From Candidatus Thorarchaeota archaeon (lineage in GTDB: Archaea > Asgardarchaeota > Thorarchaeia > Thorarchaeales > Thorarchaeaceae), in assembly GCA_018238375.1 (NCBI GenBank), contig JABCTJ010000173.1, forward strand, positions 1 to 34,008: a stretch of DNA of 34,008 nucleotides. Direction: 5' to 3'. The notes under the pieces are model-generated. The model did no database searches and had not been told where the DNA came from. It was given only the letters and a program-made list of their open reading frames with translations. The first letter of the stretch is position 1. Every line of letters begins with the position of its first letter. Shown piece by piece: positions 719-19,295 of the stretch. The translations under genes and the position numbers were made by a program.

Positions 719-1546
719 TCATTCTACGTCTACTAGAGAAGAAAGCCTCTCTATGGTTTCTTCGTAGACTGCATCGCTCTCGATTGTCAATTCGATAGCT
801 CCCTCGGGACACACTTCAACGCAGCGGCCACACGCTCTACATGCGTCACTAATGACAGCCCTGCCATTGACAAGGGTGATGGCATCCACAAAGCACACAT
901 CATCCGTGCATGTGCCACAACCAGTGCACCTGTCAGTCACACGCACGTTCACTCCATCCATTCTGGCAATCTTGCGAGCTATCTGCGGGTTGAAATCAGG
1001 CAGTGCGTTCCACAAGCAACAACACGGGCAGCAGTTACAAATCGTCAAGAGCTTGCTCCCGGGTCCAATGTTGAGCCACATGGTATCTAGCTTGTTCCTA
1101 CCTATCATCTGAACCAAGCCAGCGTCTTGGCACTTCCTCAAGTGTTCGAATGCTTCTTCCTTTGTTGCCTCACGCCCCAGTTGGGGATTGATTCCCAGCA
1201 CTGCTTCCCCAAGAAAGAGGCATCCAAGATCTATTGGGTAATCCTTGCATTGATCGGAGTCGCGGCAAATGCACTTGTTCATGATCCAGCGATGGCTGGC
1301 TTTCTCGATGAAATGCTTCACAATCTTCGACGGCAGGATGGTATCTGTAGGTCGCTCAATGGACTTCCCCACATGGATGGACATCTTGACAACATTGTCC
1401 TTTGGAAGGTAGACGACACCATCCTCCTTGAACATCATGTCGTAGACTATCCGCCCCACACCCGGAATACGGGTTATTCTTGCAATGATGCGTTTGTAGG
1501 CATATGCTTGTTTGAGCAATTCCACGAACCAAAGAGGATTAGCCAT
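719..1546 (-). CDS. Cysteine-rich 4Fe-4S ferredoxin-domain protein
   Basis: A 275-residue cytosolic-looking protein. I chose ATG 1546 because the 32-residue extension from an upstream start is low-complexity and does not look like part of the fold. The C-terminal third holds two ferredoxin-like cluster motifs: cysteines 207, 210, 213, 218 (C-x2-C-x2-C-x4-C, one residue longer than the classic spacing and without the usual proline) and cysteines 236, 239, 242, 246 (classic C-x2-C-x2-C-x3-C-P). Upstream are a C-x-C-x5-C-x8-C cluster (residues 92-109) and an unusual CNCCPCCC run (170-177). Electron transfer or a redox-regulatory role is likely, but no partner enzyme is adjacent. It is transcribed divergently from the UPF0182 gene. 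The ferredoxin domains are clear; the specific function is unknown. Confidence 0.82.
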   Translation of the reverse strand: MANPLWFVELLKQAYAYKRIIARITRIPGVGRIVYDMMFKEDGVVYLPKDNVVKMSIHVGKSIERPTDTILPSKIVKHFIEKASHRWIMNKCICRDSDQCKDYPIDLGCLFLGEAVLGINPQLGREATKEEAFEHLRKCQDAGLVQMIGRNKLDTMWLNIGPGSKLLTICNCCPCCCLWNALPDFNPQIARKIARMDGVNVRVTDRCTGCGTCTDDVCFVDAITLVNGRAVISDACRACGRCVEVCPEGAIELTIESDAVYEETIERLSSLVDVE

Positions 1547-1683
1547 GCTGCTTGACCGATGTAGAGCAACTGATAATGATTCCGAAAGGAAAAAACATAA
1601 TCTTAGTGTATCCGCACAAGACGAAACTATCATATGGCCCACGGTTATCGTGAAGTAGTTGACACGCTTGATTGGTGGAAGAA

Positions 1684-4600: not shown

Positions 4601-4695
4601 CCGGCTTGGTGCTTGGTCAGTATCTGGTTTATGTGATTCTGAGGACGGAGGAAGGGGTCGCTGATCAGGTCAGCTTAATCCTAACAGTGACGTGA
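1684..4695 (+). CDS. UPF0182-type large membrane protein
   Basis: About 1003 residues. ATG 1684 is preferred, with GGTGG six bases upstream; TTG 1672 and GTG 1675 are in-frame alternatives. The N-terminal third has about six to seven hydrophobic helices, beginning with an uncleaved signal-like helix at residues 5-23. A charged coiled-coil-like stretch follows (about residues 265-345), then a last helix (about 350-370) and a roughly 630-residue outside domain. The outside domain holds segments resembling UPF0182 (COG1615): RGHEYWIAPLTF, NQHLIYTHSEGLVV and SIDIYYGEG. The final roughly 110 residues look like a beta-sandwich module ending in SLILTVT, which I do not recall as usual in the family. 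Function is unknown for this family. Its stop is 12 bases from the stop of the convergent epimerase gene. Confidence 0.78.
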   Translation: MKHAKLLFVFIILALIAITVTSTAYGWFLGQNIYQSTYSAKAGVNFWDTWTLENNIFTASLLLTLLSVITLPQRSTFISFMSAVSQSGPVTKRLDMTSAVIWRLLEFGGFFIFYVSAGGYSLTGQNVAFLMMLLGHGSISITSADVGTLFSLPFAPGTSSESIVSLVPALEAYQLYLGLFATFLVLTGVRLVLSAITDMMSHKRDMFVVIPKILLAVSIAISLEILGVPMWTVNAGTWMSYMALIVALFASIAGAVLFLFLRVHMGDAQQRTRSKISQLEEDFARFQGELVSLRSEYESGDVTAIDYRRRVTLLMEDRAHIAKELGRLKLESLIPIRGSPRKFGFLAVILIAMVIILPLAQSFYYGIQREGDKYIDWKFNYETHKEITITNWAAGLDDMEMQTLDDLTSNATPEGEVEFLTTVRQWDQAASFLRMKNQIGTNWMELADSDIVYLRGHEYWIAPLTFDYSATRTSFINQHLIYTHSEGLVVLDAYSGDIIEQDSLVALLNRSESIDIYYGEGRGFRDVVFTDVSGFEEINNATFQGTPDYELAGFESTFYMLAMGPDAWSFMGRNMSMLVQRDVLSRVQTILLQGLAADRDPYVVVDTAGNLHYAVSIYIDYHLATGYAAENYMRFLGVVLVDIGTGELEFYKSPVAEESFFIDRTYMDYYDWQEAPHWLQSQMKWPEDLYERQLDVAYIYHVDDGFVWQAGQDFHEAPDNSDTRYIIMRIGGKDRFVAMHNSEFRDSVGRNLAGIYVMGCGDTDFGRLTFYSAGEPGFSTLLGPTAAVQAFETNDEVRTQLQFWGKHRYGNRLLYHLGGDLFFVIPVFLEVESSTNIVIEKLGGVGLVDAESGERVELGSSVVEAYYKMFGLLNQTAVEVGDVGIESAIFDPLTIDSGAFSQLVLGLRNNDNVSHDLWVDIVIVAGNFSVWWHGSEVAPTVYPSNTTFTLSIGTVGAGDIYGTSPSVAVYLPTGLVLGQYLVYVILRTEEGVADQVSLILTVT

Positions 4696-6678: not shown

Positions 6679-8675
6679 TTCTACCTCTAGAATTGTTGGG
6701 TTGGCTTGTGTTTGTAGTGCCAATAGCTGGTGCCCTTCTCACCCCCGTTTTCGGTAAGATCCACCCCACTCTAAGAGAAGTCATGGCAGTTCTTGTTGGT
6801 TTCGTCACCGCCTTTTTTGCTCTAGATATGGTTCTGGACATGCTAATCAGCCCCACATCAATCGATAACAACCTAGTCACTTGGGTTATAGCGGCTGGAA
6901 TTGAGGTGGAGTTTGGTGTTCTAATCGACCCCCTCAGTGTCCTGTTGGCCTGCATTGCAGGAGGCATCGGTTCGCTAATCATCCTGTTCAGCGTGGGATA
7001 CATGACTGGTCATGATGCCGAAGGAAATGCAGTCAAGGATCCTAGCCTAACCCGGTACTACTTCTTCATGCAATTCTTCGTTGCAGGAATGATTCTCCTA
7101 GTGATGGCGAACAACATGCTCATGACCTTCATTGGCTGGGAAATCGTTGGAATGTGCAGCTATGCGCTCATAGGATTCTGGCACAACCTGAAGGAACCCA
7201 GTCCGGTGCCGGAGTACAAGACGGAGGGCGAATACAACGCAGCAAGCGGTATGAAGGCATTCATGGTCACAAGAGTTGGCGACATCGGCCTGCTCGCAGG
7301 AATCCTGCTTCTGTTCTTCATCACGGGCACGTTCAACTACACTGAGATGCTCCAAACCGACGCTTGGGCTGTGGGTTTATTCCATCTGTTGCCCATTGTA
7401 GCGATATTGATCTTTGCTGGCCCAATTGGTAAGAGTGCACAGTTTCCCCTTCATATCTGGCTGCCAGATGCGATGGCTGGGCCTTCGACAGTTAGTGCGC
7501 TCATCCACGCAGCAGCGATGGTAAAGGCGGGAGTATATCTTGTCGCGAGAATCATCCCCATCTTCCTAGAGGTCATGCAGACCGTACCGGAAATGATTGT
7601 GTTCTTCCAGACGGTTGCGGCCATTGGTGCGTTCACTGCATTCATGGCGGCCACGATGGCCCTCGTACAGGATGAAATCAAGAAGGTTCTAGCGTATTCC
7701 ACCGTTTCACAGCTAGGATACATGTTCATGGCTCTCGGTGCAACTGGTCTTGTAGCTGAGAGCGTTTCTGCGTATGCTGCTGGAACTTTTCATCTGCTTG
7801 CTCACGCCTTGTTCAAAGCTCTACTATTTCTCGCCGCGGGATCTGTACTGCATGCAGTTCAGAGCAAGAAAATGAGCGACATGGGTGGAATCAGAAAGGA
7901 CATGAAGGTCACTTTTGCAGCATTCACAGTCGGAGCGCTCTCATTGGCTGGAGTGTTCCCGTTCATTGGTTTCTGGTCGAAGGAGCTGATATTCGAGGCG
8001 CTATGGCACGGTGGGCAGTACATCATCTTCTCCGTTGCCTTCATCACAGCCATCCTGACGGCGTTCTACACGTTCAGAATGGTTGGTATCACGTTCTTTG
8101 GCGAGAAGTCCGAGCATATCAAGAGTCTGGAGTCGCACGGGCATCATATTCATGAAGCACCTCGAACAATGACGATTCCCCTCATCATACTGGCGGTGCT
8201 TGCCGCAACTGGTGGCATCCTTGAGCTTGTATTCTTCGGATACTTCTCAGGACTTGAGACCGGCGTACTCACACACTTCGATTGGGCACACCTTGCACCG
8301 TTTGCTCTGGGGATAACTACAATATTCACAATCGCTGTGTGGCTCGTTGGCATCACTCCAGCATATCTCATCTATTGGAGGAACAAATACGACCTAAGCA
8401 GGTTCAAAGATGGGGTCCTCTACAAGTTTCTGTGGAATCGATGGTACATCAACGCCCTCTGGTATAGAATCTTCGTTGATGGTTACCTGTGGCTGAGCAA
8501 CACAATCCATGCTCGCGTGGAATCCGCGCTGTTGGCGTTCAGTGGCGCCTTGAGCGGTGGTATGGATGGTGTATCGCGTGGTTGGAGACGTACCATGACT
8601 GGTGTGCTCAATACCAATGTATTGGGCATGATGGTTGGTATCATCGCGTTTCTATTGATTCTGATATTATTGTAG
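6675..8675 (+). CDS. nuoL: Complex I-like antiporter subunit L (NuoL/FpoL)
   Basis: 666 residues, polytopic, the largest antiporter-like subunit. ATG 6675 overlaps the K stop (ATGA) and has GGAGGCTGAGGG upstream. Conserved ion-channel residues are present: Glu156 in GWEIVGMCSYALIGFW, Lys253 in GKSAQFPLHIWLPDAMAGPS, Lys284 in MVKAGVYL and Lys381 in LFKALLFLAAG. The long C-terminal extension (about residues 490-666) fits the lateral-helix part of NuoL. The FPLHIWLP/GPSTVSALIHAA signature is characteristic of NuoL rather than M or N. Role: ion (H+ or Na+) translocation in the membrane arm. Its partners in the operon are J, K, M and N. Confidence 0.95.
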   Translation: MILPLELLGWLVFVVPIAGALLTPVFGKIHPTLREVMAVLVGFVTAFFALDMVLDMLISPTSIDNNLVTWVIAAGIEVEFGVLIDPLSVLLACIAGGIGSLIILFSVGYMTGHDAEGNAVKDPSLTRYYFFMQFFVAGMILLVMANNMLMTFIGWEIVGMCSYALIGFWHNLKEPSPVPEYKTEGEYNAASGMKAFMVTRVGDIGLLAGILLLFFITGTFNYTEMLQTDAWAVGLFHLLPIVAILIFAGPIGKSAQFPLHIWLPDAMAGPSTVSALIHAAAMVKAGVYLVARIIPIFLEVMQTVPEMIVFFQTVAAIGAFTAFMAATMALVQDEIKKVLAYSTVSQLGYMFMALGATGLVAESVSAYAAGTFHLLAHALFKALLFLAAGSVLHAVQSKKMSDMGGIRKDMKVTFAAFTVGALSLAGVFPFIGFWSKELIFEALWHGGQYIIFSVAFITAILTAFYTFRMVGITFFGEKSEHIKSLESHGHHIHEAPRTMTIPLIILAVLAATGGILELVFFGYFSGLETGVLTHFDWAHLAPFALGITTIFTIAVWLVGITPAYLIYWRNKYDLSRFKDGVLYKFLWNRWYINALWYRIFVDGYLWLSNTIHARVESALLAFSGALSGGMDGVSRGWRRTMTGVLNTNVLGMMVGIIAFLLILILL

Positions 8676-8687
8676 GAGGCTGGAGCG

Positions 8688-10223
8688 ATGCAAGGAATAA
8701 TCGATATCCCCATCCCCTCACACGACCTTATGATTCTCACACTGCTCGGTCTTATCTTCGGCGGACTTCTTGTCATGCTTGCAGGAAAATGGTCTGAAAA
8801 GGGCGCGCAGGCACTTGCAAGTCTTGTTCTACTTGGTGGCCTTGCTCTGAACGTATTTCTCCTACTCAGTCCTGAGGTGTGGAGTGGGGGCGAGGTTCTC
8901 TATGAGGTAGTCTGGCTTGGATCAGCAGATTCCCCAATAATGAACATGGGTTTCAGAGGCGACGGTCTTAGTACACCTATTGCCATTCTGATTCTTGGCC
9001 TAGGCCTTTTCTCAATCCTCTTCTCGACGGTTTACATGAAAAATCTGAAGCAGCCTGGTCTGTACTACTCCTTAATGGTCTGGTTCGTCGCAGCCATGGT
9101 GGGGGTAATCTACGCAACGGACCTTATGCAGTTCTTCATTTTCTACGAGCTGATGCTCATACCTGCTTTCGTCTTGGTATACGTCTACGGAGTTTCAGAA
9201 GATCCTGTCAAGCGCTCGAAGAATGCTCTTCAGTTCTGGATATGGACAGCCGCAGGCGGGATTGTATCCCTCTTTGCAGTGTTCATGCTGTTTGGTTACG
9301 CCGGTACAATGAGCATCTCGACACTAACCACAGCATCGATTCCTGTCGAGATAGCAAAGCTCATCGGAATCATCTTTCTCTTGGGATTCGGCATGAAGCT
9401 CGGGCTTGTGCCTTTGCACGTATGGGCGCCTCCTGTCTATGGTGAAGCGCCTCTCCCAGTGCTTGTTCTCCTCAGTGGAGCCATGACCAAGACCGCGGCC
9501 TATGGTGTAATTAGAATCGTCATCCCCATCCTATCTGAGGGACTCCGCGGTTATGCCTCTGGTCTGATGGTGATTTCACTCATCACAATGTTCTATGGCG
9601 CAATGATGGCAATCTCCCAAAAGGATCTCAAGATGATGCTTGCATACTCCAGTATCAGTCAGCTTGGATACTTGATGTTTGGATACTCGACCATGACTTC
9701 AATTGGTGTCAATGGTGCAGCATTCCAGCTGATCAACCACGGGATTCTGGCTAGTCTGACATTCTTCTGTGCAGGCGCTATAAAGATGAAGACTGGAACG
9801 ATGAAGTTTGACAAGCTGGGGGGTCTTGCTCCCAAGATGCCCATACTTGCCACAGTCTACATTATTGGTGCACTCGCTCTTGCTGGCACTCCGCCGATGT
9901 CCGCGTTCGTGGGCGAGTGGATGATATTCGCTGGTGCAGCTGAACGTACTGCATTGGCTGGTGTTGGTCAACCATTCTACTTGATCATGACTGTTCTTGC
10001 TGTGGTGGCTACGGGTCTTACTGCAGCCTACTACCTCTGGTCCATTAGGCGTATCTTCTTCGGGCAAGTTCCAGAAGGTATGGAGGACGTCAGAGACCCG
10101 CCGCGGTTAATTTTGGTAATCACCGGAATCATGGCTTTCGTCGTTGTGATTCTAGGCGTTTGGCCATGGATGCTTTGGAGATTCATAGGTCCGGTTCTGA
10201 CCGGAGTTGTGGGAGGAGGCTGA
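8688..10223 (+). CDS. nuoM: Complex I-like antiporter subunit M (NuoM)
   Basis: 511 residues, about 14 helices, starting at ATG 8688 (GGAGGCTGGAGCG just upstream), 12 bases after the L stop. Channel residues are visible: Glu154 in FFIFYELMLIPAF, Lys237 in GFGMKLGLVPLHVWAP and Lys268 in SGAMTKTAAYGVIRI. LAYSSISQLGYLMFG and the INHGILASLTFF helix follow the NuoM pattern. The segment after that helix (AIKMKTGTM) lacks the YERRHTR-like sequence common in NuoM, a possible lineage change. Role: one of three antiporter-like pump modules. Confidence 0.94.
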   Translation: MQGIIDIPIPSHDLMILTLLGLIFGGLLVMLAGKWSEKGAQALASLVLLGGLALNVFLLLSPEVWSGGEVLYEVVWLGSADSPIMNMGFRGDGLSTPIAILILGLGLFSILFSTVYMKNLKQPGLYYSLMVWFVAAMVGVIYATDLMQFFIFYELMLIPAFVLVYVYGVSEDPVKRSKNALQFWIWTAAGGIVSLFAVFMLFGYAGTMSISTLTTASIPVEIAKLIGIIFLLGFGMKLGLVPLHVWAPPVYGEAPLPVLVLLSGAMTKTAAYGVIRIVIPILSEGLRGYASGLMVISLITMFYGAMMAISQKDLKMMLAYSSISQLGYLMFGYSTMTSIGVNGAAFQLINHGILASLTFFCAGAIKMKTGTMKFDKLGGLAPKMPILATVYIIGALALAGTPPMSAFVGEWMIFAGAAERTALAGVGQPFYLIMTVLAVVATGLTAAYYLWSIRRIFFGQVPEGMEDVRDPPRLILVITGIMAFVVVILGVWPWMLWRFIGPVLTGVVGGG

Positions 10224-10228
10224 GTCAG

Positions 10229-11788
10229 ATGCAGCTGGATTTCCTATTCTCTCCCGAGTTTGCGACTGTGATGCCAGTACTGATTCCAATCGTCTTTGCA
10301 ATCTTGGTTGCAGTGCTCTCTGAGGGGGTTCGCGTTGCCGTAAAGCGAGTTCCCAAGGGTCTCCCAGACGCTATTGCAGTCATAGGCTTCGCATTAGCGC
10401 TCATGTACGTGTACATGCTCGGAACCGAGGTTTGGAGCAACGGAGTGCACACATTCGTTTTGTCTTGGAGCGGCGGCAATTACGTGATGGCTGCAGACGA
10501 GTTCTCCGTCTTGATGATGGGGCTTTTTACATTCATGGGCCTTGTTGTTGCATTGTACTCCGTGGGCTACATGAAAAAGGACACTGGCCTAGCTCAGTAT
10601 TACATCTTGCTTCTGATCATGGTGGGCGCAATGAATGGCGTCGTGATTTCCACGGACCTGTTCACACTCTACATGTTCTACGAGACCATGGGTGTCTGCA
10701 GTTTCATCCTTGTGGCTTTCAGGAGGACTTGGGAAGGCATCGAAGCCGCTATCAAGTACCTCATGATGTCTGCGATTGGATCGACTCTAGTGCTCATGTC
10801 CGCCAGCTACCTTTACGGTCTAACTGGCACGCTCAACCTAGCTCTAATGTCACAGGCATTGCAGGCACACCCCGAGAATCCTCTTATTCCAATCCTCATT
10901 GCTCTGCTTACTGCTGGGTTCGCTGTGAAGGGTGCCGTAGTTCCCTTTGCGGCATGGCTTGCAGACGCTCATCCAGCGGCACCAAGTGGCATCAGCGCCA
11001 TGTTGTCTGCTGTCGTGATTAAAGTGGGCATCTACGGTATCATTCGCATCAACACACTGTTGTTTCCGATTCATACCATCTACTTCGATTGGCCGCTACT
11101 GATCTCAATCCTTGCCTTAGTCACAATGACCGCTGGCAACTTCTGGGCACTCACGCAGAAGGACCTCAAGCGAATGCTGGCATACAGTTCGATAGCTCAG
11201 ATAGGCTTCATTCTCTTTGCATTCGGAACGGCTACACAGTTTGGATATCAGTCCGGAACATTCTACATCCTCGTTCATGCTCTAACTAAGGGGCTCCTAT
11301 TTCTCTGCGCAGGAGCGTTCCTACATGCAGTTGGCAGTCGTGACTTGGATGACCTGAAAGGAGTCGGCAAGATGATGCCTGTGACAGGAGCGTTCTTTGT
11401 AATTGGTGTGCTATCTCTTATGGGAATGCCGCCCTTGGCTGGCTTTTACGCGAAGTTCCTAATCCTCGCCGCTGGTGTCGACGCGGGAATCAATTTCACT
11501 GGCTACTATCTGCTATTCACAGTTGTTGCCCTGTTCAACGCTCTGCTTGGCCTTGGCTACTACCTGAGGATGATAAAGACGGTCTGGTTTGAGCCGCTGT
11601 CTGAAAAGGTCAGAAGCGCGCATCGTGCTAGTCCTTCAGTCATCTTGGGGATGGGGATTCTTGCGGTTGCCCTGTTGGTCATAGGTGTGTATCCTGCCCC
11701 AATCTACAGTATTGCTGAGGCTGCTGGCAGTGCGCTATACAACTACGTGGATGTTGTTAATGCAATCATGGCCGCCAGAACCCCCTAG
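10229..11788 (+). CDS. nuoN: Complex I-like antiporter subunit N (NuoN/MrpD-like)
   Basis: 519 residues. ATG 10229 is chosen because GGGAGGAGG lies about 10 bases upstream; an earlier in-frame start would overlap the M gene by 64 bases. Polytopic, with Glu152 (MFYETMGVCSF), Lys234 (FAVKGAVVPFAAWLADAHP), Lys265 (VVIKVGIYGIIRI) and Lys354 (HALTKGLLFLCAG). LTQKDLKRMLAYSSIAQIGFI and MGMPPLAGFYAKFLIL are shared by NuoN, MrpD and hydrogenase antiporter subunits. The call N rests on operon position; by sequence it could equally be called MrpD-like. It ends the operon; the next genes are on the other strand. Confidence 0.92.
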   Translation: MQLDFLFSPEFATVMPVLIPIVFAILVAVLSEGVRVAVKRVPKGLPDAIAVIGFALALMYVYMLGTEVWSNGVHTFVLSWSGGNYVMAADEFSVLMMGLFTFMGLVVALYSVGYMKKDTGLAQYYILLLIMVGAMNGVVISTDLFTLYMFYETMGVCSFILVAFRRTWEGIEAAIKYLMMSAIGSTLVLMSASYLYGLTGTLNLALMSQALQAHPENPLIPILIALLTAGFAVKGAVVPFAAWLADAHPAAPSGISAMLSAVVIKVGIYGIIRINTLLFPIHTIYFDWPLLISILALVTMTAGNFWALTQKDLKRMLAYSSIAQIGFILFAFGTATQFGYQSGTFYILVHALTKGLLFLCAGAFLHAVGSRDLDDLKGVGKMMPVTGAFFVIGVLSLMGMPPLAGFYAKFLILAAGVDAGINFTGYYLLFTVVALFNALLGLGYYLRMIKTVWFEPLSEKVRSAHRASPSVILGMGILAVALLVIGVYPAPIYSIAEAAGSALYNYVDVVNAIMAARTP

Positions 11789-11804: not shown

Positions 11805-12230
11805 CTATTGCCTAGCAGACTCTGGATGGGCTAGTTCGTTTTGCTCGCCGTCACTCGAATGAATCGCTGGTATCTTGAACCACGCGGCCAAGATAGCCCC
11901 ACATGCCGTGAATACGACTAATGGTGGCAGGTAGATGTCACCAGAACCAGTCCACCCAGCTGCAACTCCTGAGAGAACGAAACCAAAAAGAATTTCGAAT
12001 CTGAAGAACCATTTCCAAAGCATTGGATGGTCTAGAAACGAGTTATAAAATCTCATCCACAGTTCATCGCCATCGCATCCTTTCCTGCCATGCTCCACCA
12101 AGCCTCGATTAATGTATTTGCTAACTTGACACATCTGAAGCCAGAACAACAGGACAATCAAGCCCAGTAGTACGATTGGTACCAACACTATCCAGACATA
12201 CTCGTCGAACGTTTCATGCAAGCCCTGCAC
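11805..12230 (-). CDS. Small membrane protein of the 3-TM cluster (1)
   Basis: 141 residues, no family recognised. GTG 12230 is supported by GGAGGTAG about 8 bases upstream, inside the end of the preceding gene. Topology: TM1 (about residues 12-33), a charged stretch of about 45 residues containing VEHGRKGCDGDELW, TM2 (about 77-95), a short loop, TM3 (about 102-118), then an acidic tail. This TM-charged-TM-TM-tail layout recurs in most minus-strand genes up to 17.8 kb. It lies two genes from the end of the ion-pump operon, on the opposite strand and convergent with it. Function unknown. Confidence 0.7.
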   Translation of the reverse strand: MQGLHETFDEYVWIVLVPIVLLGLIVLLFWLQMCQVSKYINRGLVEHGRKGCDGDELWMRFYNSFLDHPMLWKWFFRFEILFGFVLSGVAAGWTGSGDIYLPPLVVFTACGAILAAWFKIPAIHSSDGEQNELAHPESARQ

Positions 12231-12236
12231 TACTTT

Positions 12237-12566
12237 CTACCTCCAGCTCACTTGGAATCCGGCTTGATTGCTGTATGTAACCACTTCTATTTTACCGTTT
12301 GCAGTTGGCAAATTAACCCGTAATGCTGACGCGGTACCAACGACCAATATCACCAGAAATACTGGCCAATACACCTCAAATGGACGTACCCATGCAATTG
12401 CCAAACCTGCTAGAGTGAAGGACAAGAAGGTAGCTCCCTTAAACTGCAAGTTCCACGTCGATGTCCGAGCAGATGGCACAGTCACTACCAAAGCACTCGT
12501 CCCACCAGAGCTTGCGGGCGCCGGAATCAAAGCGCATCTCTCGGAAGCATCCAGAGATGTTGTCAT
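12237..12566 (-). CDS. Hypothetical small membrane protein, possibly incomplete cluster member
   Basis: 109 residues with no recognised family. The first 40 residues are polar and rich in Ser, Thr and Ala. Then come two hydrophobic helices separated by WVRPFEVYWP and a polar C-terminus. The pair of helices with a W/P/E loop matches TM2-loop-TM3 of neighbouring cluster proteins, while the equivalent of TM1 is missing. It could be a shortened paralog, or the N-terminal part may be misread. No strong ribosome site is seen before ATG 12566. The stop is 6 bases before the start of the next gene on the same strand. Confidence 0.5.
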   Translation of the reverse strand: MTTSLDASERCALIPAPASSGGTSALVVTVPSARTSTWNLQFKGATFLSFTLAGLAIAWVRPFEVYWPVFLVILVVGTASALRVNLPTANGKIEVVTYSNQAGFQVSWR

Positions 12567-12620
12567 TAGTCATCCATAGCTCTTTTTCATTTACGAATTA
12601 CAGTCCATAATAAGGCTCTG

Positions 12621-12968
12621 CTACGGAATTCGCTCGCGACGGTCATGCCATCCGACAATAATGGAGGCCAGAATCGTGGTCCCCCATAGAACTGCTAGGA
12701 TCTGATAGAATAAGCTCGGAGGTTGTGATGAGGAGAATAGAATCAACGGCCATAGTGAAATAGCAGTTATGGTGAAGGCTCCTGTGATGTATAGCATTAC
12801 GTGTTCCCACCACCACGGACGTCCTTCATAGATAAGTTTGCTTCTTGCCTTGACAAAGCCTCCGAGGATAGATGTTCCCCAATACCTATCAGCAAGTGCA
12901 AGATACAGGAGGAATCCCAGCAGCATCGGACCCATGAGAAGAGCGCCCAATATTATGGGACTAGTCAC
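12621..12968 (-). CDS. Small membrane protein of the 3-TM cluster (2)
   Basis: 115 residues. GTG 12968 is supported by GAGGTGGTG about 8 bases upstream. TM1 (about residues 4-25) is followed by a basic, aromatic stretch (KARSKLIYEGRPWWWEH), TM2 (about 58-79), a short SSSQPP loop, TM3 (about 84-104) and the charged tail WHDRRERIP. The layout matches the neighbouring cluster genes, but sequence similarity is weak by eye. Function unknown; presumably an integral membrane protein. Confidence 0.68.
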   Translation of the reverse strand: MTSPIILGALLMGPMLLGFLLYLALADRYWGTSILGGFVKARSKLIYEGRPWWWEHVMLYITGAFTITAISLWPLILFSSSQPPSLFYQILAVLWGTTILASIIVGWHDRRERIP

Positions 12969-13077
12969 TTATTATCACCACCTCATGATTCAAGGACAAT
13001 GAGTAATAGGAATTGACTGTTTCGCCAATGCATGATTCAAAGGCCTCCTCCATCAATCTAACTCCTGCAATTGCTAG

Positions 13078-13935
13078 CTATGTGACCCAGCTTGGAGCCA
13101 CGAAAATCGCATCCATTGGTTGGGCGCTGGCTATCACACCAAGCTCGTACACCATCACTAGAATCCACAAAATGAAGGCTAATATCATTGTCCATTTAGC
13201 AGCCTGCATGGCTACTGCATTCACCTTACCGAATATCTTCGTTAGAATTCCTGTTACTTTGTCAACTAAATGGCCCTGTATGATGAGGAAGCCGAACAAC
13301 TTCGCCAGCCAAACAATAATGAGTACGCCAATCCCCATCAGGGTGTCTCCTCCGGTTGTGTATCCGTTCGCATAGTTGTGATAGAGAGCCCAAAGGTGCT
13401 TGAACAGGCAGGCACTCCAGACACCCAGACAGACCATGAAGATGATGTAGGTCGCCCAGTTAATTACTAGCCACGACGATACTATCAATGCCACTGTTGC
13501 TAGCGTCAAGTGGGTTCCGGTTTCGAAAGTGCTTATCTGCGCTTGTTCTACCTGCTGCGCGACTCTCTGTGCAATAACTGGGTCATCAAAGTTGATTCCT
13601 TGGATTCCGAAGTTTGAGGTAACCACATTCACGGTTCCAAGAAGGTCTATGGTCAAGTCCATCACTAATGTGCAGACGCCAAATGCCGCGTTGACTGTTA
13701 TCTGTAGGGTGGGCCACAATGATTGCAGCCATTGGAAGATGAGATTCTGGTTTGCAAACTGCTGACTTGCGGGATTCAATTCGTCTTCTGGTTCAGGTCC
13801 CACACCATCGCTGGTACCGTCATACTTTATCGGCGAATCTGGATTCAACGCAGTGAGATCGGCAATCACGTTGATGTCGTGAATCCTCATATCCACAAGG
13901 TTGTAGTGAGAGTACCTGTATCCCAGCGGCACCAC
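13078..13935 (-). CDS. Hypothetical membrane protein, possibly truncated at the N-terminus
   Basis: 285 residues from GTG 13935. The reading frame stays open only 12 codons further upstream to a TGA at 13972-13974. The first roughly 75 residues are polar and read like the interior of an exported domain (YSHYNLVDMRIHDINVIADL), with no signal peptide. The C-terminal two thirds contain about four to five helices, including TLATVALIVSSWLVINWATY and the last one before ASAQPMDAIF. No family recognised. The gene differs from the 3-TM neighbours in size. The lack of signal peptide and of a clear ribosome site suggests either a 5'-truncated remnant of a larger protein or an unusual start. Confidence that it is coding is good because the frame is long and hydrophobic. 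Confidence 0.6.
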   Translation of the reverse strand: MVPLGYRYSHYNLVDMRIHDINVIADLTALNPDSPIKYDGTSDGVGPEPEDELNPASQQFANQNLIFQWLQSLWPTLQITVNAAFGVCTLVMDLTIDLLGTVNVVTSNFGIQGINFDDPVIAQRVAQQVEQAQISTFETGTHLTLATVALIVSSWLVINWATYIIFMVCLGVWSACLFKHLWALYHNYANGYTTGGDTLMGIGVLIIVWLAKLFGFLIIQGHLVDKVTGILTKIFGKVNAVAMQAAKWTMILAFILWILVMVYELGVIASAQPMDAIFVAPSWVT

Positions 13936-13971
13936 GTGTTTGATGACTCTTCCATACTGCTCTTGCAGATA

Positions 13972-14358
13972 TCAGGGTTCCCTAGCAGAATCCCCCTCCT
14001 TCTCTTCTTCCCCTGTTTTTGAATAGCAAACTGGAAGTGAAATGGACAGCAAAATACCACCAAAAAATACGTACCAACTATCCATCATCAGGGCTATTGC
14101 CTCTTCGGGAACGAGAATCAATCCTGGTAGGAAAACGGCAACAAGAGGAAGAACAAAGAACAGCAAATAGAAACCTACCTCTGTTGATCTCCGTTCTTTT
14201 GCTCTAACGTACAGCCACGCTAGGCCAGCAACTTCTCGATCTTCACCTTTTCTCAAATCAGCGATAATTCCAATACCCCTGAAGAAAGCGTACCCAAAGA
14301 ATAGGAATATGCATATTGAAAGCAAAGCGCCTAAAGGAGCCCATTCCATTATTTCCAT
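13972..14358 (-). CDS. Small membrane protein of the 3-TM cluster (3), PEEA motif
   Basis: 128 residues from ATG 14358; GTG 14367 is an in-frame alternative. TM1 (about residues 6-27) is followed by a charged stretch (LRKGEDREVAGLAW, VRAKERRSTE), TM2 (about 57-78), the loop LVPEEAIALMMDSWYVF, TM3 (about 82-103) and the acidic tail GEEEKEGDSAREP. The loop and start of TM3 match the gene at 16802-17341 (LLPEEAIVIISSTWIVF), so the two are probably paralogs. The gene at 15719-16108 has a weaker version (WPEDF then SSW). Function unknown. Confidence 0.7.
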   Translation of the reverse strand: MEIMEWAPLGALLSICIFLFFGYAFFRGIGIIADLRKGEDREVAGLAWLYVRAKERRSTEVGFYLLFFVLPLVAVFLPGLILVPEEAIALMMDSWYVFFGGILLSISLPVCYSKTGEEEKEGDSAREP

Positions 14359-14393
14359 GTATATCACTCGCTCCCGCAGATTGTTGAATCTTT

Positions 14394-14543
14394 CTAACTA
14401 CTCGTGAAAGCCATGTGCAACGATAGTCCAACTAGCACGGTGAATAGAATAAGGGCGCAAACAAGGCTCCGGAAAGCAACATCCAGCATGATAACAGAAC
14501 CCCATGATATGCCCAAGAGCATGAATCCCACAAACCAGTTCAT
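14394..14543 (-). CDS. 49-residue membrane miniprotein
   Basis: A short gene with ATG 14543 and stop TAG 14394-14396. GACAGGAGGAT directly precedes the start with good spacing, which is among the better ribosome sites in the cluster. The product has two hydrophobic stretches (NWFVGFMLLGISWG and SLVCALILFTVLVG) separated by a short segment with Asp and Arg, and no other features. It sits between two cluster genes on the same strand with compatible spacing, so it is likely co-transcribed. Function unknown; a small subunit or regulator of neighbouring membrane proteins is possible (inference). Confidence 0.55.
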   Translation of the reverse strand: MNWFVGFMLLGISWGSVIMLDVAFRSLVCALILFTVLVGLSLHMAFTSS

Positions 14544-14581
14544 ATCCTCCTGTCACCTCTCACCCTATTGCCAATCTTCAT

Positions 14582-15091
14582 CTATGAACTCAAAGATTCC
14601 TTCAACAACTCCCTTGCCGACTGCCCTACGTCATCGTCTCGTTGAGAAAGGCGAGTGAGCAAATCTAACGCGTCATCCTTTTCAATCCGTTTGTCTTGCA
14701 GCAATTTGCGCACCGTGATCTTCAGTTGTTTCGCGGGGTCATCAGCCGTTTTGATAAAGAATGGCTCGATTAGGGCGACCAGTTTTTTTGATGTTAGACA
14801 AGTCCTGCCTGTAGGCTTCTTGAAAACTAGGTAGCGTGTTCCAATGATTGCAGCAACAGCCAATGCGCCAAAAGCCCCAAATAGAATGTACGTGCCAACG
14901 CTTGCTAACAGGACGTCCAGCAGTACAGCGATTCTCCATTTTAACACAAGATGGCCTAATACATCAGATTGCTGCTTTGGTGAAGTGCCCACGAGTTTTT
15001 CCAGTTTCCCTGCATAGATCAGTGCAACAATACTCAGGGCATAGAATGGCAGAGCAATCACGAGCTGAAGAATTTCTTGAGGAACCTGCAT
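14582..15091 (-). CDS. Membrane protein of the 3-TM cluster (4) with RDDD-x-G tail domain
   Basis: 169 residues from ATG 15091, with GGTG about 8 bases upstream. TM1 (about residues 8-26) is followed by the charged stretch KLEKLVGTSPKQQSD, a hydrophobic pair (about 50-85), and a C-terminal soluble helical region of about 65 residues rich in Lys, Asp and Arg. The end, LLTRLSQRDDDVGQSARELL, shares an RDD(D/E)-x-G pattern with the genes at 16195 and 16802 (RDDEIG and RDDELG). These three are therefore probably paralogs with the same cytoplasmic tail. Function unknown. Confidence 0.72.
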   Translation of the reverse strand: MQVPQEILQLVIALPFYALSIVALIYAGKLEKLVGTSPKQQSDVLGHLVLKWRIAVLLDVLLASVGTYILFGAFGALAVAAIIGTRYLVFKKPTGRTCLTSKKLVALIEPFFIKTADDPAKQLKITVRKLLQDKRIEKDDALDLLTRLSQRDDDVGQSARELLKESLSS

Positions 15092-15195
15092 TGATTACAC
15101 CATTCGCTACTCCTCTTTGCATACTCCAAGCGGCACCTTGGCAATACAAGCCACAATCGAATTGGTCATTCCAGTAGCCATGGATGTATCACTTC

Positions 15196-15600
15196 TTACG
15201 TTTTTGTGACTATCATCTCACGAAGAAGCCTTTCATTGTGGATGAATAGAAGTGAGAAGAATAGCATCACGCTAGATACAGCAAGGATCATCCCTATGCT
15301 GTAAATTATGTCTATTGATACAAACAACGGTTGAAGCCAAAACTCACCCCATACTACCACCAAGATTGGTGCAATGAGTACAATCAGATAGAATGCATAG
15401 ATAATCAAGGGTGGTTTGGCAGTATATTGATCTAAGATCCATTTTCCGATGCCTATCCGCTTATCGAATTCCTTAGACAAGGCTCTTTTCATCGTGTCCA
15501 GAAGGATTTTCGGTAGATACCATATGACTAGAATGGGAGCTAGTCCCGCAAATCCCAGAAGCGCGATAATGAGGACATTCAAATCGACCAACGGAGTCAC
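15196..15600 (-). CDS. Small membrane protein of the 3-TM cluster (5)
   Basis: 134 residues if translation starts at GTG 15600. The frame stays open to TTG 15768, but that start would overlap the upstream gene by 50 bases and add a cysteine-rich, unconserved-looking extension. The shorter form matches the 128-141 residue size of neighbours. TM1 (about residues 8-30) is followed by the charged stretch KRALSKEFDKRIGIGKW, TM2 (about 60-82), the loop VVWGEFWLQP, TM3 (about 95-118) and the tail HNERLLREMIVTKT. The tail resembles NRRVRHEMLEEG at the end of the gene at 17403. Function unknown. Confidence 0.66.
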   Translation of the reverse strand: MTPLVDLNVLIIALLGFAGLAPILVIWYLPKILLDTMKRALSKEFDKRIGIGKWILDQYTAKPPLIIYAFYLIVLIAPILVVVWGEFWLQPLFVSIDIIYSIGMILAVSSVMLFFSLLFIHNERLLREMIVTKT

Positions 15601-15718
15601 CCCAATGAAGGTAGGAATGATTGCATATCTACAGCAACTACAAAGTAGTAAGCTGCCAACGCAAACATGAACACTCTGCAAATAAGTGTTGATGATGATG
15701 CGGCTTGTGTCGTAGCTC

Positions 15719-16108
15719 CTACTTGCGGTCAGTGAATTCCGAAATCGAACTAGGACTTGAACAGGCAATTCTCAATGTCCCAAAGACCACAGCAATAGCA
15801 GCCCAAGATGAAAGAGAATACACTGTTGATAGAAAATCCTCCGGCCATAGTAGCCAAGTCGCTATAATGGGCACCCCAAAGAGAATGCCCAGAGATCCGA
15901 ATGTGGCGACAGCACATGCAGCCAAGGTTCGAGTCGTTCGAACATGGAGGGCAACCAATCTAGGGAGTCTTGCTGGACGCGAAGTACTTGCGGAGTTCAT
16001 GAAATGTCGCCTGTACCGAGCTGCAGCTTGCTCCGCTACACCGAGAGCGAATAGCGGTATTGCAGAAGCCACAGTTATCAGGAAGATAGCCAGATTATCA
16101 ATCGCCAT
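15719..16108 (-). CDS. Small membrane protein of the 3-TM cluster (6)
   Basis: 129 residues from ATG 16108, with GGAGGGGG about 6 bases upstream, a strong ribosome site. TM1 (about residues 4-26) is followed by a very basic stretch of about 35 residues (ARYRRHFMNS to HVRTTRT), TM2 (about 63-86), the loop LLWPEDFLSTVYSLSSW, TM3 (about 96-113) and a polar tail. The loop echoes the PEEA...W pattern of the genes at 13972 and 16802. The basic stretch is probably cytoplasmic by the positive-inside rule. Function unknown. Confidence 0.7.
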   Translation of the reverse strand: MAIDNLAIFLITVASAIPLFALGVAEQAAARYRRHFMNSASTSRPARLPRLVALHVRTTRTLAACAVATFGSLGILFGVPIIATWLLWPEDFLSTVYSLSSWAAIAVVFGTLRIACSSPSSISEFTDRK

Positions 16109-16194
16109 TTCAATCCCCCTCCATTTGAATGAGAGAGCCTCATATGCTTTTGCGATATTCTCAGACCGTTATGCTTTGTCTGATGCATATGTTA

Positions 16195-16740
16195 TCATAC
16201 TGAATTCTGACGTTTTGAAATCCATTCTGACAAGACCTGCTTAAAGACAGTCCCTATCTCATCGTCCCGAAGTAGAAAGCGTTCCTTCGCCGCGTTGTAA
16301 TGTGCTGTTCCAGACCTTTCGGGTTGGCCCTCGAAGCCATTCACAAGGCCCTCAAAGAATTCTTCCAAGGCAACCAATGATTTGGACTTTTCAATAGCTA
16401 TCTCTTCTAGATGCTCCCCTAGAGCTAGCTCTCTCTCTTTTATTGGATGGAAACGCATGTCAACCCAAATCAGAACTAATACCCACAAAAAAGCTTCAAT
16501 TCCTGCGAACACGACCATGCCTTCCAACAACTCGTATCTAGGCCCAAACTCAAGAACAAAATACTCGGCAAGCCAGACCAACATGAGAAACCCAATCCCA
16601 ATCATGGCTCTCCTGTAAGTTGCAAAGAAAAAGCGACCAGCTTCTCGTACGAAAACGGGGCCAATGCTTCGTCTTTCGCAGAAGTCACAACTAACTATGA
16701 AAAGCAACAATAAAGGCACTCCGATAATAATGACCAGCAT
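16195..16740 (-). CDS. Membrane protein of the 3-TM cluster (7) with RDDE-x-G tail
   Basis: 181 residues from ATG 16740, with GGTGGGG about 7 bases upstream. GTG 16830 is in frame but would overlap the upstream gene by 29 bases. TM1 (about residues 2-17) ends in a cysteine pair (CDFCERRS), then a charged stretch, TM2 (about 44-60), a loop with FGPRYELLEG, TM3 (about 68-87) and a cytoplasmic helical tail of about 90 residues. The tail ends in FLLRDDEIGTVFKQVLSEW, the motif shared with 14582 and 16802. Its size also agrees with those two (169 and 179 residues). Function unknown. Confidence 0.7.
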   Translation of the reverse strand: MLVIIIGVPLLLLFIVSCDFCERRSIGPVFVREAGRFFFATYRRAMIGIGFLMLVWLAEYFVLEFGPRYELLEGMVVFAGIEAFLWVLVLIWVDMRFHPIKERELALGEHLEEIAIEKSKSLVALEEFFEGLVNGFEGQPERSGTAHYNAAKERFLLRDDEIGTVFKQVLSEWISKRQNSV

Positions 16741-16801
16741 CTTGACACCCCACCACTGACTGTAAGTGATTCCTCCGTCATAAGAGTATGCTGTTGTACT
16801 G

Positions 16802-17341
16802 CTAGTCGTCCCGTGCTCCCTCGCTGACACCTAGTTCATCTGCGAGAGTCCTCGCACGCTTCCCTAGTTCATCATCGCGTTCAAGAAGCTGCTTCAGATG
16901 AACACTAGCCACATTGCTTCCACTTTCAGCTTCATATGAAAGCGTCATAAGAACATCACGCAGCTTATCATGAGGGATGCTAGTACTGTCCATTTGTCTG
17001 CTAGCCGCGGCGTGGCCTTGGATGATCCCGACTATTGGAAGAACCGGAAAAACAATCCATGTTGAGCTTATAATGACAATTGCTTCTTCCGGAAGGAGCA
17101 CCAAGCATAAAGCCCAGAAGCTGAGTGGAACCATAGAGAAGAGCAGTCCGTGAAGAGCGGCGCATCGCTTGGGTGTGCTGACACTCTTCTTTAGTATGGA
17201 CCGGCCTATCCCGGTCACTTCCTCAGCCTTTGCTGCGCTTAGCATTGCCCTCTTTATTGTGAAGTAGACTACGAAGATAAGTCCAAATTCGAAGATGCCA
17301 ATCAAGAGAGCCGCATATGCAATCTCACTCGGTTCACTCAT
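16802..17341 (-). CDS. Membrane protein of the 3-TM cluster (8), PEEA and RDDE motifs
   Basis: 179 residues from ATG 17341, with GGTGA upstream. TM1 (about residues 8-30) is followed by a charged stretch (KAEEVTGIGRSILKKSVST), TM2 (about 62-83), the loop LLPEEAIVIISSTWIVF, TM3 (about 90-110) and a soluble helical tail ending LLERDDELGKRARTLADELG. It carries both motifs seen separately in neighbours: the PEEA loop of 13972 and the RDD-E/D-x-G tail of 14582 and 16195. It therefore links the short and long subfamilies and is the best seed for a profile search. Function unknown. Confidence 0.74.
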   Translation of the reverse strand: MSEPSEIAYAALLIGIFEFGLIFVVYFTIKRAMLSAAKAEEVTGIGRSILKKSVSTPKRCAALHGLLFSMVPLSFWALCLVLLPEEAIVIISSTWIVFPVLPIVGIIQGHAAASRQMDSTSIPHDKLRDVLMTLSYEAESGSNVASVHLKQLLERDDELGKRARTLADELGVSEGARDD

Positions 17342-17402
17342 ATAATCATGTCACCTTTTCTTTTTCCCTCATGATCATTCATCTATGTATTTTCTCCAGA
17401 GC

Positions 17403-17795
17403 TCACTTATTATCTTCACGTCTTTCTGGAATCATTCCTTCCTCAAGCATTTCGTGTCGCACCCTGCGATTCATCTGCATCACAGGCAATGAGAACAATA
17501 GTACTAATGCAGTCATGAGGAATGCAATATATGGAGAACTGTAATCGAAAAGAGACTCTACAACAGCAGAAACCAGGTGCCCGCCCCACAAGAAATAGCT
17601 CACTAGGAGTGTTGGTGTCAACGCAAGCACGTCGAATAATAGATCGAACAGCCGGGGATTGGCCCTGTAGGAATATCCCCATTTAGCGTACTTACAAAGC
17701 CCTCGCAAGATAAGGCCATGTACCAATGCGCCAATGAGCAATACGGGCAATATGCTCGCGAATAGGATCAAGACACCAAGAATCAAATCAAGCAT
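17403..17795 (-). CDS. Small membrane protein of the 3-TM cluster (9)
   Basis: 130 residues from ATG 17795. TM1 (about residues 3-30) is followed by LCKYAKWGYSYRANPRLFD, TM2 (about 50-70), a loop with Asp and Ser-Pro, TM3 (about 88-106) and the highly charged tail NRRVRHEMLEEGMIPERRED. It shows the same layout as the other cluster genes and a tail like that of 15196. It is the first gene of the run in the direction of transcription. Function unknown. Confidence 0.7.
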   Translation of the reverse strand: MLDLILGVLILFASILPVLLIGALVHGLILRGLCKYAKWGYSYRANPRLFDLLFDVLALTPTLLVSYFLWGGHLVSAVVESLFDYSSPYIAFLMTALVLLFSLPVMQMNRRVRHEMLEEGMIPERREDNK

Positions 17796-17861: not shown

Positions 17862-18911
17862 CTAAGACCGAACCCGTCTAACTAGCTCCCGAATCGTCAT
17901 CGACATGAATAGCAGAGAACCAATCACGAAGTACGACAGATAGACAAGAGTGCCTATGATAATCGTGATGTCGGGGATGATTGCCCAGATCAGTAGCAAG
18001 ATGAAAAGCAAGCCATACCATCGCTTCAGTTCTTTCGTTCCCAACAGTTTCGAATCAACACTCGGAATGGATTCGGATTCATCGACTGGAGGACTTGCAT
18101 AGATGAGCAAGATCACAAAGGCATAGATGAATAGCGTAGCGATGATTGTTTCAATACCTGGAATGCGCTCAGGTAGCAGAACTGGAAATGTGATAGCGTA
18201 CAAGAGGATAACATATGCAGCAGTCACAGCCAGACCCTTCCTTCCCAATCTTAGTGATTGAATCGAGAACGATCCTCCTCCGCGCCTTTTGATAAGATAG
18301 TATGGGATTAGAATCAGGACGAGGCTGCCAAGTGCCGTAATCCCCGCCACGATGAAGTCGTATTCAGAACTGATTATCATGAACAAGGATCCTATGATGA
18401 AAGCGTACAGGTAGAACACTGAATTCCGTTGACTTCTCTGAAGGAACGAAGTGTGAGTTGGGAAGGTGGTTTCCATTCCCTCATTCGATGTGCTGCCTGC
18501 TTGAGATAAAATCTGGAATACCAGAATCGGCAAAACGAATGCCATTATTGGGTGCCAGAACAAGAGCAGCACGATATTCTCGGCAATTGCGAGCCCAAAG
18601 ACCGTGCCAAGAAGAGGTGGCTCTGTGAAGTATCCCGCCCATAGCACCTTTGTGACCCATGACTCATAGAGCCCGAATAGTATTCCCCAGAGGTACAGTT
18701 GACCCACTGACGTTCTCTTGGTTCTCATGGCAAGGTTCAGAAAGAGCAGGGTATGCGACCAATAGAGGGGCAGCGTGACAAACCAGGCCCACTCAGTAAT
18801 GAACCATAGAATGGATGAGCCCGAGAACGCCTCAGCGAATACCATTGACAGGAGGCCGATAAGCACCAACTGGGACCACCTCGAGTCTGTTGGGTTCTCT
18901 GAGTCTTGCAT
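17862..18911 (-). CDS. Polytopic membrane protein, family not recognised
   Basis: 349 residues from ATG 18911, with AGGAAAGG just upstream. I count about nine or ten hydrophobic helices, with a soluble loop near residues 130-155 and a basic segment RRGGGSFSIQSLRLGRKG near 210-228. The conserved-looking portion is N-terminal: SHTLLFLNLAMRTKRTSVGQ and GLYESWVTKVLWAGYF. No transporter or enzyme signature is recognised. It is followed on the same strand, after 66 bases, by the 3-TM cluster, so it may head that transcription unit (inference from spacing). Confidence 0.72.
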   Translation of the reverse strand: MQDSENPTDSRWSQLVLIGLLSMVFAEAFSGSSILWFITEWAWFVTLPLYWSHTLLFLNLAMRTKRTSVGQLYLWGILFGLYESWVTKVLWAGYFTEPPLLGTVFGLAIAENIVLLLFWHPIMAFVLPILVFQILSQAGSTSNEGMETTFPTHTSFLQRSQRNSVFYLYAFIIGSLFMIISSEYDFIVAGITALGSLVLILIPYYLIKRRGGGSFSIQSLRLGRKGLAVTAAYVILLYAITFPVLLPERIPGIETIIATLFIYAFVILLIYASPPVDESESIPSVDSKLLGTKELKRWYGLLFILLLIWAIIPDITIIIGTLVYLSYFVIGSLLFMSMTIRELVRRVRS

Positions 18912-19007: not shown

Positions 19008-19295
19008 TTGCCTTACTACGTCTACATAATCGAAACAGAAACTGGCACCTACTACACTGGGCAGACTAATAATCTAAACCGACGACTGAACGAGCATGTA
19101 TCTGGGAACTCAAAGTCCGCTGCCTACTTTCACATGCATCAACCCAAATACCTCGTCTACGTGGAAGAATGCGGCACCAGAGGTGATGCTCTTCGCCGTG
19201 AGCGTCAGATTAAGCGGAATCGACGACTTAAGCTATTCTTGATTGGTGATCGACGAGATCTCCAAGGACTCGTGAATTCAGAAACCATCTCCTAG
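19008..19295 (+). CDS. GIY-YIG nuclease superfamily protein (YhbQ/UPF0213-like)
   Basis: 95 residues, about the usual length for stand-alone GIY-YIG domains of the COG2827 type. The start must be TTG 19008 or later, because a TGA lies in frame at 18999-19001. The motif reads PYYVYIIET, then TYYTGQTNNLNRRLNEH, with the conserved arginine and histidine. ALRRERQIKRNRRLKLFLI carries the family glutamate. Members act on or bind structured DNA, but the role of the small proteins is poorly defined. A short spacing (53 bases) separates it from the following kinase gene. Confidence 0.88.
   Translation: MPYYVYIIETETGTYYTGQTNNLNRRLNEHVSGNSKSAAYFHMHQPKYLVYVEECGTRGDALRRERQIKRNRRLKLFLIGDRRDLQGLVNSETIS

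Follow-up and report, generated by a model that had tools for sequence, protein, structure and literature searches.

In bacterial contact-dependent inhibition (CDI), a large secreted protein ends in a variable C-terminus behind a junction motif, the immunity gene lies downstream, and orphan modules (CdiA-CT/CdiI) are headless with varying lengths of homologous head (PMC3150448). Orphan immunity arrays of the type VI secretion system (T6SS) in Vibrio cholerae arise by effector displacement, with the old immunity genes retained in a row (PMC5361080). Polymorphic toxins have been described as rare in archaea, where most immunity superfamilies are absent (PMC3482391), and those of archaea were without experimental characterisation as of PMC8416519, in which the VARTIG modules of Thermococcales were compared with polymorphic toxins by their authors. 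Here we analyze a contig of 34,008 bp from a Candidatus Thorarchaeota archaeon (JABCTJ010000173.1, referred to as the window; its genome assembly, GCA_018238375.1, is 2.5 Mb in size and 92.6% complete). It contains a minus-strand run of nine genes for proteins of 115-181 aa with about three predicted transmembrane segments (3-TM genes, named here by their lower coordinate), together with an open reading frame (ORF) at 13078-13971. This row is probably an array of mostly orphan immunity genes belonging to a Thorarchaeota-specific polymorphic toxin/immunity system with membrane-acting tails.

The full-length proteins of this system, found in related genomes, are 1061-2120 aa long and consist of a signal-like N-terminal helix, an alpha/beta domain with conserved His and Cys residues, lectin-like repeats (the head), a junction and a variable tail, with a 3-TM gene located downstream. 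The likeness to CDI lies in the large secreted protein, in the variable C-terminus behind a junction motif (VENN in CDI, DMRVHDINVVADLN here), in the immunity gene downstream and in headless orphan modules that keep differing lengths of the head. The two differ in the heads, which in Thorarchaeota are predicted lectin-fold repeats behind the N-terminal His/Cys domain, in the archaeal envelope, and in the tails, which form one diversified transmembrane (TM) family whereas those of CDI are many unrelated enzymes. No Pfam match to CdiB, two-partner-secretion or filamentous haemagglutinin parts was found in six head-bearing proteins, and AlphaFold2 (AF2) with Foldseek shows lectin folds. The V. 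cholerae arrays share the displacement and the retention of immunity genes, but here there is no T6SS, the effector is a surface-protein domain and the immunity proteins sit in the membrane. A membrane-acting C-terminal domain and a small adjacent 3-TM protein are also found in pore-forming colicins with E1-type immunity, a likeness of layout and position only (PMC10906532). The tail here differs in being predicted to consist of a beta sheet and some four long TM helices, and several of the immunity-like types have an additional helical domain at the C-terminus; the tails gave no Pfam match to the colicin pore-forming domain and no sequence match to colicins.

The nearest archaeal analogue in organisation is VARTIG, an archaeal large secreted protein with a hypervariable C-terminus and variable downstream genes. 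Its variable part is an immunoglobulin (Ig) domain, whereas the proteins described here have a multi-TM tail of beta sheet and TM helices and lectin-like repeats. As far as the citations in PMC8416519 and PMC12988326 convey, the archaeal polymorphic toxins predicted by Makarova et al. 2019 (mBio 10:e00715-19) are alike as archaeal toxin/immunity loci in general. Neither literature searches nor an Asgard defence survey brought to light an account of such a system in Asgard archaea, the overlap with Makarova et al. 2019 being unchecked.

Variable tails and their downstream partners

A search of the phylum with the 16802 protein alone gave faint matches only, and the loci of these matches led to cassettes of a tail and a 3-TM gene. 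The 3-TM genes in these related loci alternate with larger genes bearing the motif GYRYSHYNLVDMRIHDINVVADLNxHDPN, which is also present in the window ORF 13078-13971. This ORF, overlooked in the initial annotation of the window as part of the same system, is the key to it. With a query of head and junction, 22 of the 47 genomes of the class were positive, and a single-protein scan of GTDB contigs gave a match in Candidatus Thorarchaeota archaeon CSMAG_1051 only (locus L128). A total of 40 regions were gathered, and a hidden Markov model (HMM) of the junction picked out 67 ORFs in 13 genomes whose tails measure 180 aa or more. The tails are about 245 aa long with a conserved start (YWTGWWPxLH...DLLG), after which they are hypervariable and contain three to six TM segments.

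A small TM gene directly behind the tail, taken as an ORF of 90-260 aa with at least two TM segments within 300 bp downstream, was found for 58 of the 67 tails compared with 7 of 60 control genes (Fisher p=1.6e-18), and at least five of the nine tails without a partner end at contig edges. The TM segments of the partners occur mostly at residues ~7, ~60 and ~85. Similarity between tails was found to be correlated with similarity between their partners (Mantel r=0.696; 0 of 5000 permutations, with a maximum permuted value of 0.149).

The full-length protein, as counted by its N-terminal domain, mostly occurs once per genome, and the other tails are headless cassettes that retain only the end of the head. 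Between cassettes of the same genome the DNA of the junction arms is 85-95% identical whereas the tails share 18-29% of residues, and the arms are closer within a genome than between genomes (0 of 2000 permutations). Ribosome-binding-site matches are stronger at the immunity genes than at the headless cassettes (34 of 52 versus 14 of 41; background 9 of 52; p=0.0035), although this contrast is only suggestive and is not uniform among the genes of the window.

With regard to polymorphic toxins sensu Zhang 2012, we observed a secreted conserved N-terminal part followed by a variable C-terminal domain after a conserved junction, a co-varying partner gene directly downstream of that domain, and stand-alone C-terminal cassettes that could recombine onto the head. 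Head, junction and tail, the downstream partner, the co-variation and the cassettes together match the way in which a polymorphic toxin/immunity system is built.

Gene content and exchange of modules at the array site

The array lies between the last gene of a complex I-like cluster and a gene of 349 aa. Within it are one pair of a tail and a 3-TM gene (13078/12621), eight 3-TM genes that have no tail, a head remnant and, before 13972, 24 codons left over from a tail (Table 1). No full-length protein was found in the 92.6%-complete assembly. Three of the start codons lie further in than the ends of their ORFs, namely an ATG at 14358 for 13972, a start at ~15591 for 15196 and an ATG at 16740 for 16195.

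Table 1. Features of the array and its flanking genes, with positions in the window.
Feature	Position	Strand	Evidence
Conserved flank, 349-aa membrane protein, site boundary	17862..18911	-	G120, G111, G028: same site, 86-91% identical
Orphan 3-TM immunity-like gene, 130 aa	17403..17795	-	Relative L079:2826-3209 in G153 array, E 4e-13
Orphan 3-TM immunity-like gene, 179 aa, helical C-terminal motif LxxLLxRDDExGxxAR	16802..17341	-	AF2 pLDDT 84; related to tail-adjacent 3-TM genes
Orphan 3-TM immunity-like gene, 181 aa from its ATG, C-terminal RDDE motif	16195..16740	-	ORF and relatives
Orphan 3-TM immunity-like gene, 129 aa	15719..16108	-	Ortholog directly behind complete tail in G111 (L084:6204-6608), 80% aa
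Orphan 3-TM immunity-like gene, ~131 aa	15196..15591	-	L084:6778-7140, 70% aa identity
Orphan 3-TM immunity-like gene, 169 aa, C-terminal RDDD motif	14582..15091	-	ORF and relatives
C-terminal remnant of deleted toxin-like tail (LVCALILFTVLVGLSLHMAFTSS)	14397..14474	-	L012 tail end: 83% aa over 24 residues, E 1e-6
Orphan 3-TM immunity-like gene, 128 aa	13972..14358	-	Gene behind complete tail in G120 (L012:8239-8622), 89% aa
Junction / homology arm (VIKHVVPLGYRYSHYNLVDMRIHDINVIADL), headless	13861..13971	-	67% aa to head/junction query; 84-87% DNA to L012, L084 junctions
Variable toxin-like membrane tail, ~245 aa, ~5 TM, headless cassette	13078..13860	-	Junction HMM 71.5 bits; tail homologs E 4e-24
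3-TM immunity-like gene, 115 aa, partner of tail 13078	12621..12968	-	Next gene downstream of tail, 109-bp gap
Decayed head-domain remnant (RFDSGARKLWWDECFGSDCAICSDI)	12457..12518	-	L012 head, 84% DNA identity, E 1e-12
Pseudogene ORF: out-of-frame head remnant and fragment resembling 3-TM gene 11805	12237..12566	-	Sequence comparisons
Orphan 3-TM immunity-like gene, 141 aa	11805..12230	-	Relative L070:443-928 in G090 array, E 5e-11
Conserved flank, last complex I-like gene, other boundary	10229..11788	+	G028: same site, 95% aa identical

At this site, DISPLACEMENT is seen when window positions 14474-13865 are compared with positions 8122-8732 of locus L012 in G120, a genome of the same genus with the same site (89% DNA identity). 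A complete head-and-tail ORF of 513 aa precedes the ortholog of 13972 in G120. The homology starts abruptly at 14474, inside the last codons of the tail, which leaves the 24-residue remnant, and ends at 13865 inside the junction, beyond which tail 13078 is found in the window and other DNA in G120. A second stretch, 16147-15134, is collinear with L084 6181-7205 in G111, also of the same genus (84.6% DNA identity); there, the ortholog of 15719 lies behind a complete tail, whereas the window has the 3-TM gene 16195 upstream instead. The array is absent at the site in G028, where an unrelated gene of 207 aa is found. This multi-TM gene occupies the array site in G028 (L096 15236-15859) and lies beside the array in G111 (L084 3540-4163). 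In contig 38 of G153, at least four 3-TM genes follow one another with no tails between them.

Those orphan 3-TM genes that are kept in two genomes evolve under purifying selection, with ratios of nonsynonymous to synonymous substitution (dN/dS) of 0.26 for 13972, 0.34 for 15719 and 0.47 for 15196. They are more loosely constrained than the flanking genes, for which dN/dS is 0.05-0.19. Headless cassettes, together with partners kept after the loss of their tails, constitute the pattern of toxin/immunity arrays.

Three nucleotidyltransferase/HEPN (HepT-like; MNT/HEPN) pairs and one VapBC pair were identified with Pfam in L012 (G120:C38; 5576-6741, 8772-9472, 10130-10956 and 11878-12751), where they are interleaved with toxin-like cassettes. 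Inserted genes vary at this site, a general hotspot of conflict genes. The suspicion voiced in the initial annotation that the neighbouring respiratory pump is there by chance was borne out, as the content of the site varies, G028 lacks the array and G120 holds toxin-antitoxin modules; a functional link with the pump was rejected on account of the variable content and the array-free site in G028.

Relatedness of the 3-TM proteins

All nine genes proposed earlier as members of one expanded family exist as ORFs, and their common layout of TM1, a charged loop, TM2, a short loop and TM3 is supported by hydropathy and by the AF2 model of 16802. In this model (predicted local distance difference test score, pLDDT, as in Table 1), the three TM helices are long, PEEA lies in a short helix, and the C-terminal part is helical and contains LxxLxxRDDExGxxAR, a motif common to many partners in other genomes. 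The PEEA...W motif was recovered in 13972 and 16802 (mutual BLAST E about 0.001), while 15719 has PEDF...SW, and the motif shared by the C-terminal tails of 17403 and 15196 reads NRRVRHEM in the former and NERLLREM in the latter. A tenth possible member, 12237, is not one, being the pseudogene that combines the out-of-frame head remnant at 12457-12518 with an 11805-like fragment.

Profile-profile comparison linked 13972, 16802, 16195 and 14582 directly or via related 3-TM groups, and 15719 weakly (55%). More than 80% probability was reached in 6 of 78 pairs compared with 0 of 91 pairs with control membrane proteins (maximum 25%). The remaining proteins, 17403, 15196, 11805 and 12621, were unlinked to the other 3-TM proteins of the window. 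Judged by sequence, the row appears to hold one superfamily core and further members that are too diverged, or unrelated, to be linked. The earlier wording of an expanded family with a defence-like role came close to the truth, except that the family holds for part of its members only.

Relatives of all the window 3-TM genes but 12621 occur in arrays of other genomes; 12621 is recognised by the tail with which it pairs, 13078. Relatives of 16195 include tail-adjacent genes in L052, L051 and L054 (E down to 1e-12) and L079:662 (1e-18). Those of 14582 include the tail-adjacent L057:1697 and L058:2686 (E 3e-7), and a leave-window-out profile gave 4e-10 in a test that is partly circular, as near relatives of the window genes stay in the profile; profile-profile comparison with controls is the fairer one. 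Scans of the 3-TM proteins against Pfam, NCBIfam and PADLOC gave no match above cut-off, and weak matches to 8xMP, DUF4190 and KwaA were rejected as sub-threshold.

Predicted domains, possible action and alternative readings

The AF2 model of a full-length protein of 1061 aa (mean pLDDT 82, alignment of 72 rows) has a helix at 8-38, the alpha/beta domain at 44-300, beta sandwiches to ~830 and four strands at 857-902, followed by four tail helices of 29-35 residues each (915-946, 955-983, 988-1020 and 1025-1059). The best PDB matches of this model in Foldseek are galectins, calreticulin, laminarinases and carbohydrate-binding modules (E down to 4e-8), and the repeats are accordingly predicted to be lectin/glucanase-like. 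Ordinary surface proteins also make use of the lectin-like head domain: the window's own genome encodes a secreted protein of 699 aa (L020, G000:C227, 5151-7250) with two copies of it, Ig-like repeats and a single C-terminal TM segment in place of the variable tail. The longest full-length version, of 2120 aa (L071, G043:C70, 5014-11376), has extra DUF2341 and glucuronyl-epimerase-type beta-sandwich domains among its heads.

Two residues of the N-terminal domain, H70 (SHGGP) and C105 (ACxS), are invariant in 10 of 10 domains and lie directly after strands 98-102 and 133-137 of the AF2 model, respectively. By this motif and the order of the strands, the domain resembles a clan CD (caspase-like) peptidase, and peptidases of this clan are known as releasing peptidases of polymorphic toxins (PMC3482391). 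A relative of the His/Cys domain (36% identity) occurs outside the class in a protein of 604 aa from another Asgard family (L110, G047, 1471-3282), in which no toxin tail was seen.

In the proposed system, the complete weapon would be a secreted surface protein composed of a signal peptide, the His/Cys domain, two to three lectin-fold repeats, the junction and the hypervariable tail of ~245 aa, which is predicted to form a small beta sheet and then about four long TM helices, while the gene directly behind it would encode the cognate 3-TM protein. The lectin repeats may bind a neighbouring cell, upon which the tail would be released, perhaps by proteolysis through the peptidase domain, insert into the neighbour's membrane and permeabilise it by a putative pore. 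A resident 3-TM protein would protect the cell by meeting its cognate tail within the membrane and blocking it, as E1-type immunity does with pore-forming colicins (PMC10906532). Silent cassettes of tail and 3-TM gene could recombine onto the head via the junction, and the old 3-TM gene would often be retained when a new module displaces an old one. The window's organism would thereby retain eight orphan antidotes and one cassette, nearly all of the matching toxin parts having been lost at the site.

The chances are about even, in our judgement, that Thorarchaeota possess a contact-dependent weapon specific to their lineage, a single surface protein that combines a caspase-like peptidase domain with lectin repeats and an exchangeable membrane toxin of four helices and is countered by a diversified 3-TM immunity superfamily, with some genomes, this one among them, being disarmed, immune-only bystanders that carry antidote arrays. 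Asgard archaea are the closest known relatives of eukaryotes. If the proposal is true, they fight their own kind across the membrane, and the presence of a putative caspase-like domain among Asgard conflict genes would be relevant to the history of such peptidases. Past toxins could then be read off a row of 'hypothetical membrane proteins', and the superfamily of membrane immunity proteins with its matched tails would be suited to direct tests of toxicity.

Several observations weigh against the immunity array. None of the tails (including 13078-13860), 3-TM genes or N-terminal domains match Pfam or NCBIfam. The N-terminal domain also gave no match in sequence and profile searches of the PDB, Foldseek on the whole full-length model returned lectin-domain matches only, and the likeness to clan CD comes from motif and strand order only. 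The AF2 confidence is uneven in the tail (37-79 over the helices), a Foldseek search of the 16802 model against the PDB gave no match, and four of the 3-TM proteins stay unlinked to the others. Finally, the tail might instead anchor the protein in the membrane of its own producer.

One alternative is self/non-self recognition without killing, in which the tail would anchor the lectin-bearing protein in the cell's own membrane, with the 3-TM protein as assembly partner or signalling subunit, and the variation would serve kin recognition or evasion, as in one hypothesis for VARTIG in Thermococcales. The C-terminus of a secreted protein is where a multi-TM anchor would sit, co-variation of tail and partner is expected of binding subunits, and recognition is listed as an alternative by the VARTIG authors (PMC8416519). 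We nevertheless regard it as unlikely, since the headless cassettes with arms and the partners retained under purifying selection after tail loss follow the toxin/immunity pattern, and a partner subunit without its protein has no obvious use. A chance gathering of unrelated, fast-evolving small membrane genes, for example remnants of mobile elements or viruses, would suit a hotspot that holds MNT/HEPN and VapBC pairs in G120 and a row in which four of nine proteins are unlinked to the rest by sequence. It is very improbable in view of the repeated 3-TM layout, the relatives that most of the genes have in tail-bearing arrays of other genera, the regular spacing behind tails, the preserved DNA synteny and the lack of any integrase or viral gene among the window ORFs, and is contradicted by the pairing statistics. 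The hetero-oligomeric membrane complex or sensor array of paralogous 3-TM subunits suggested in the initial annotation, for which the shared layout, the tandem order and the profile links among some members speak, is likewise very improbable, as each 3-TM type lies behind a different tail elsewhere and pairs with its own (Mantel r=0.70), congeners differ in gene content and order at the site, and one of them has no array there.

Outside the array, a large membrane protein of the UPF0182 family (1672-4695; Pfam 9e-21) adjoins the complex I-like cluster, and a small protein with a GIY-YIG nuclease domain (19008-19295) adjoins the 349-aa gene and is found at the same place in congeners. Further along the window, positions 29610-31961 encode a mostly helical protein of 783 aa with a weak TPR match and a sub-threshold similarity to Imm68.

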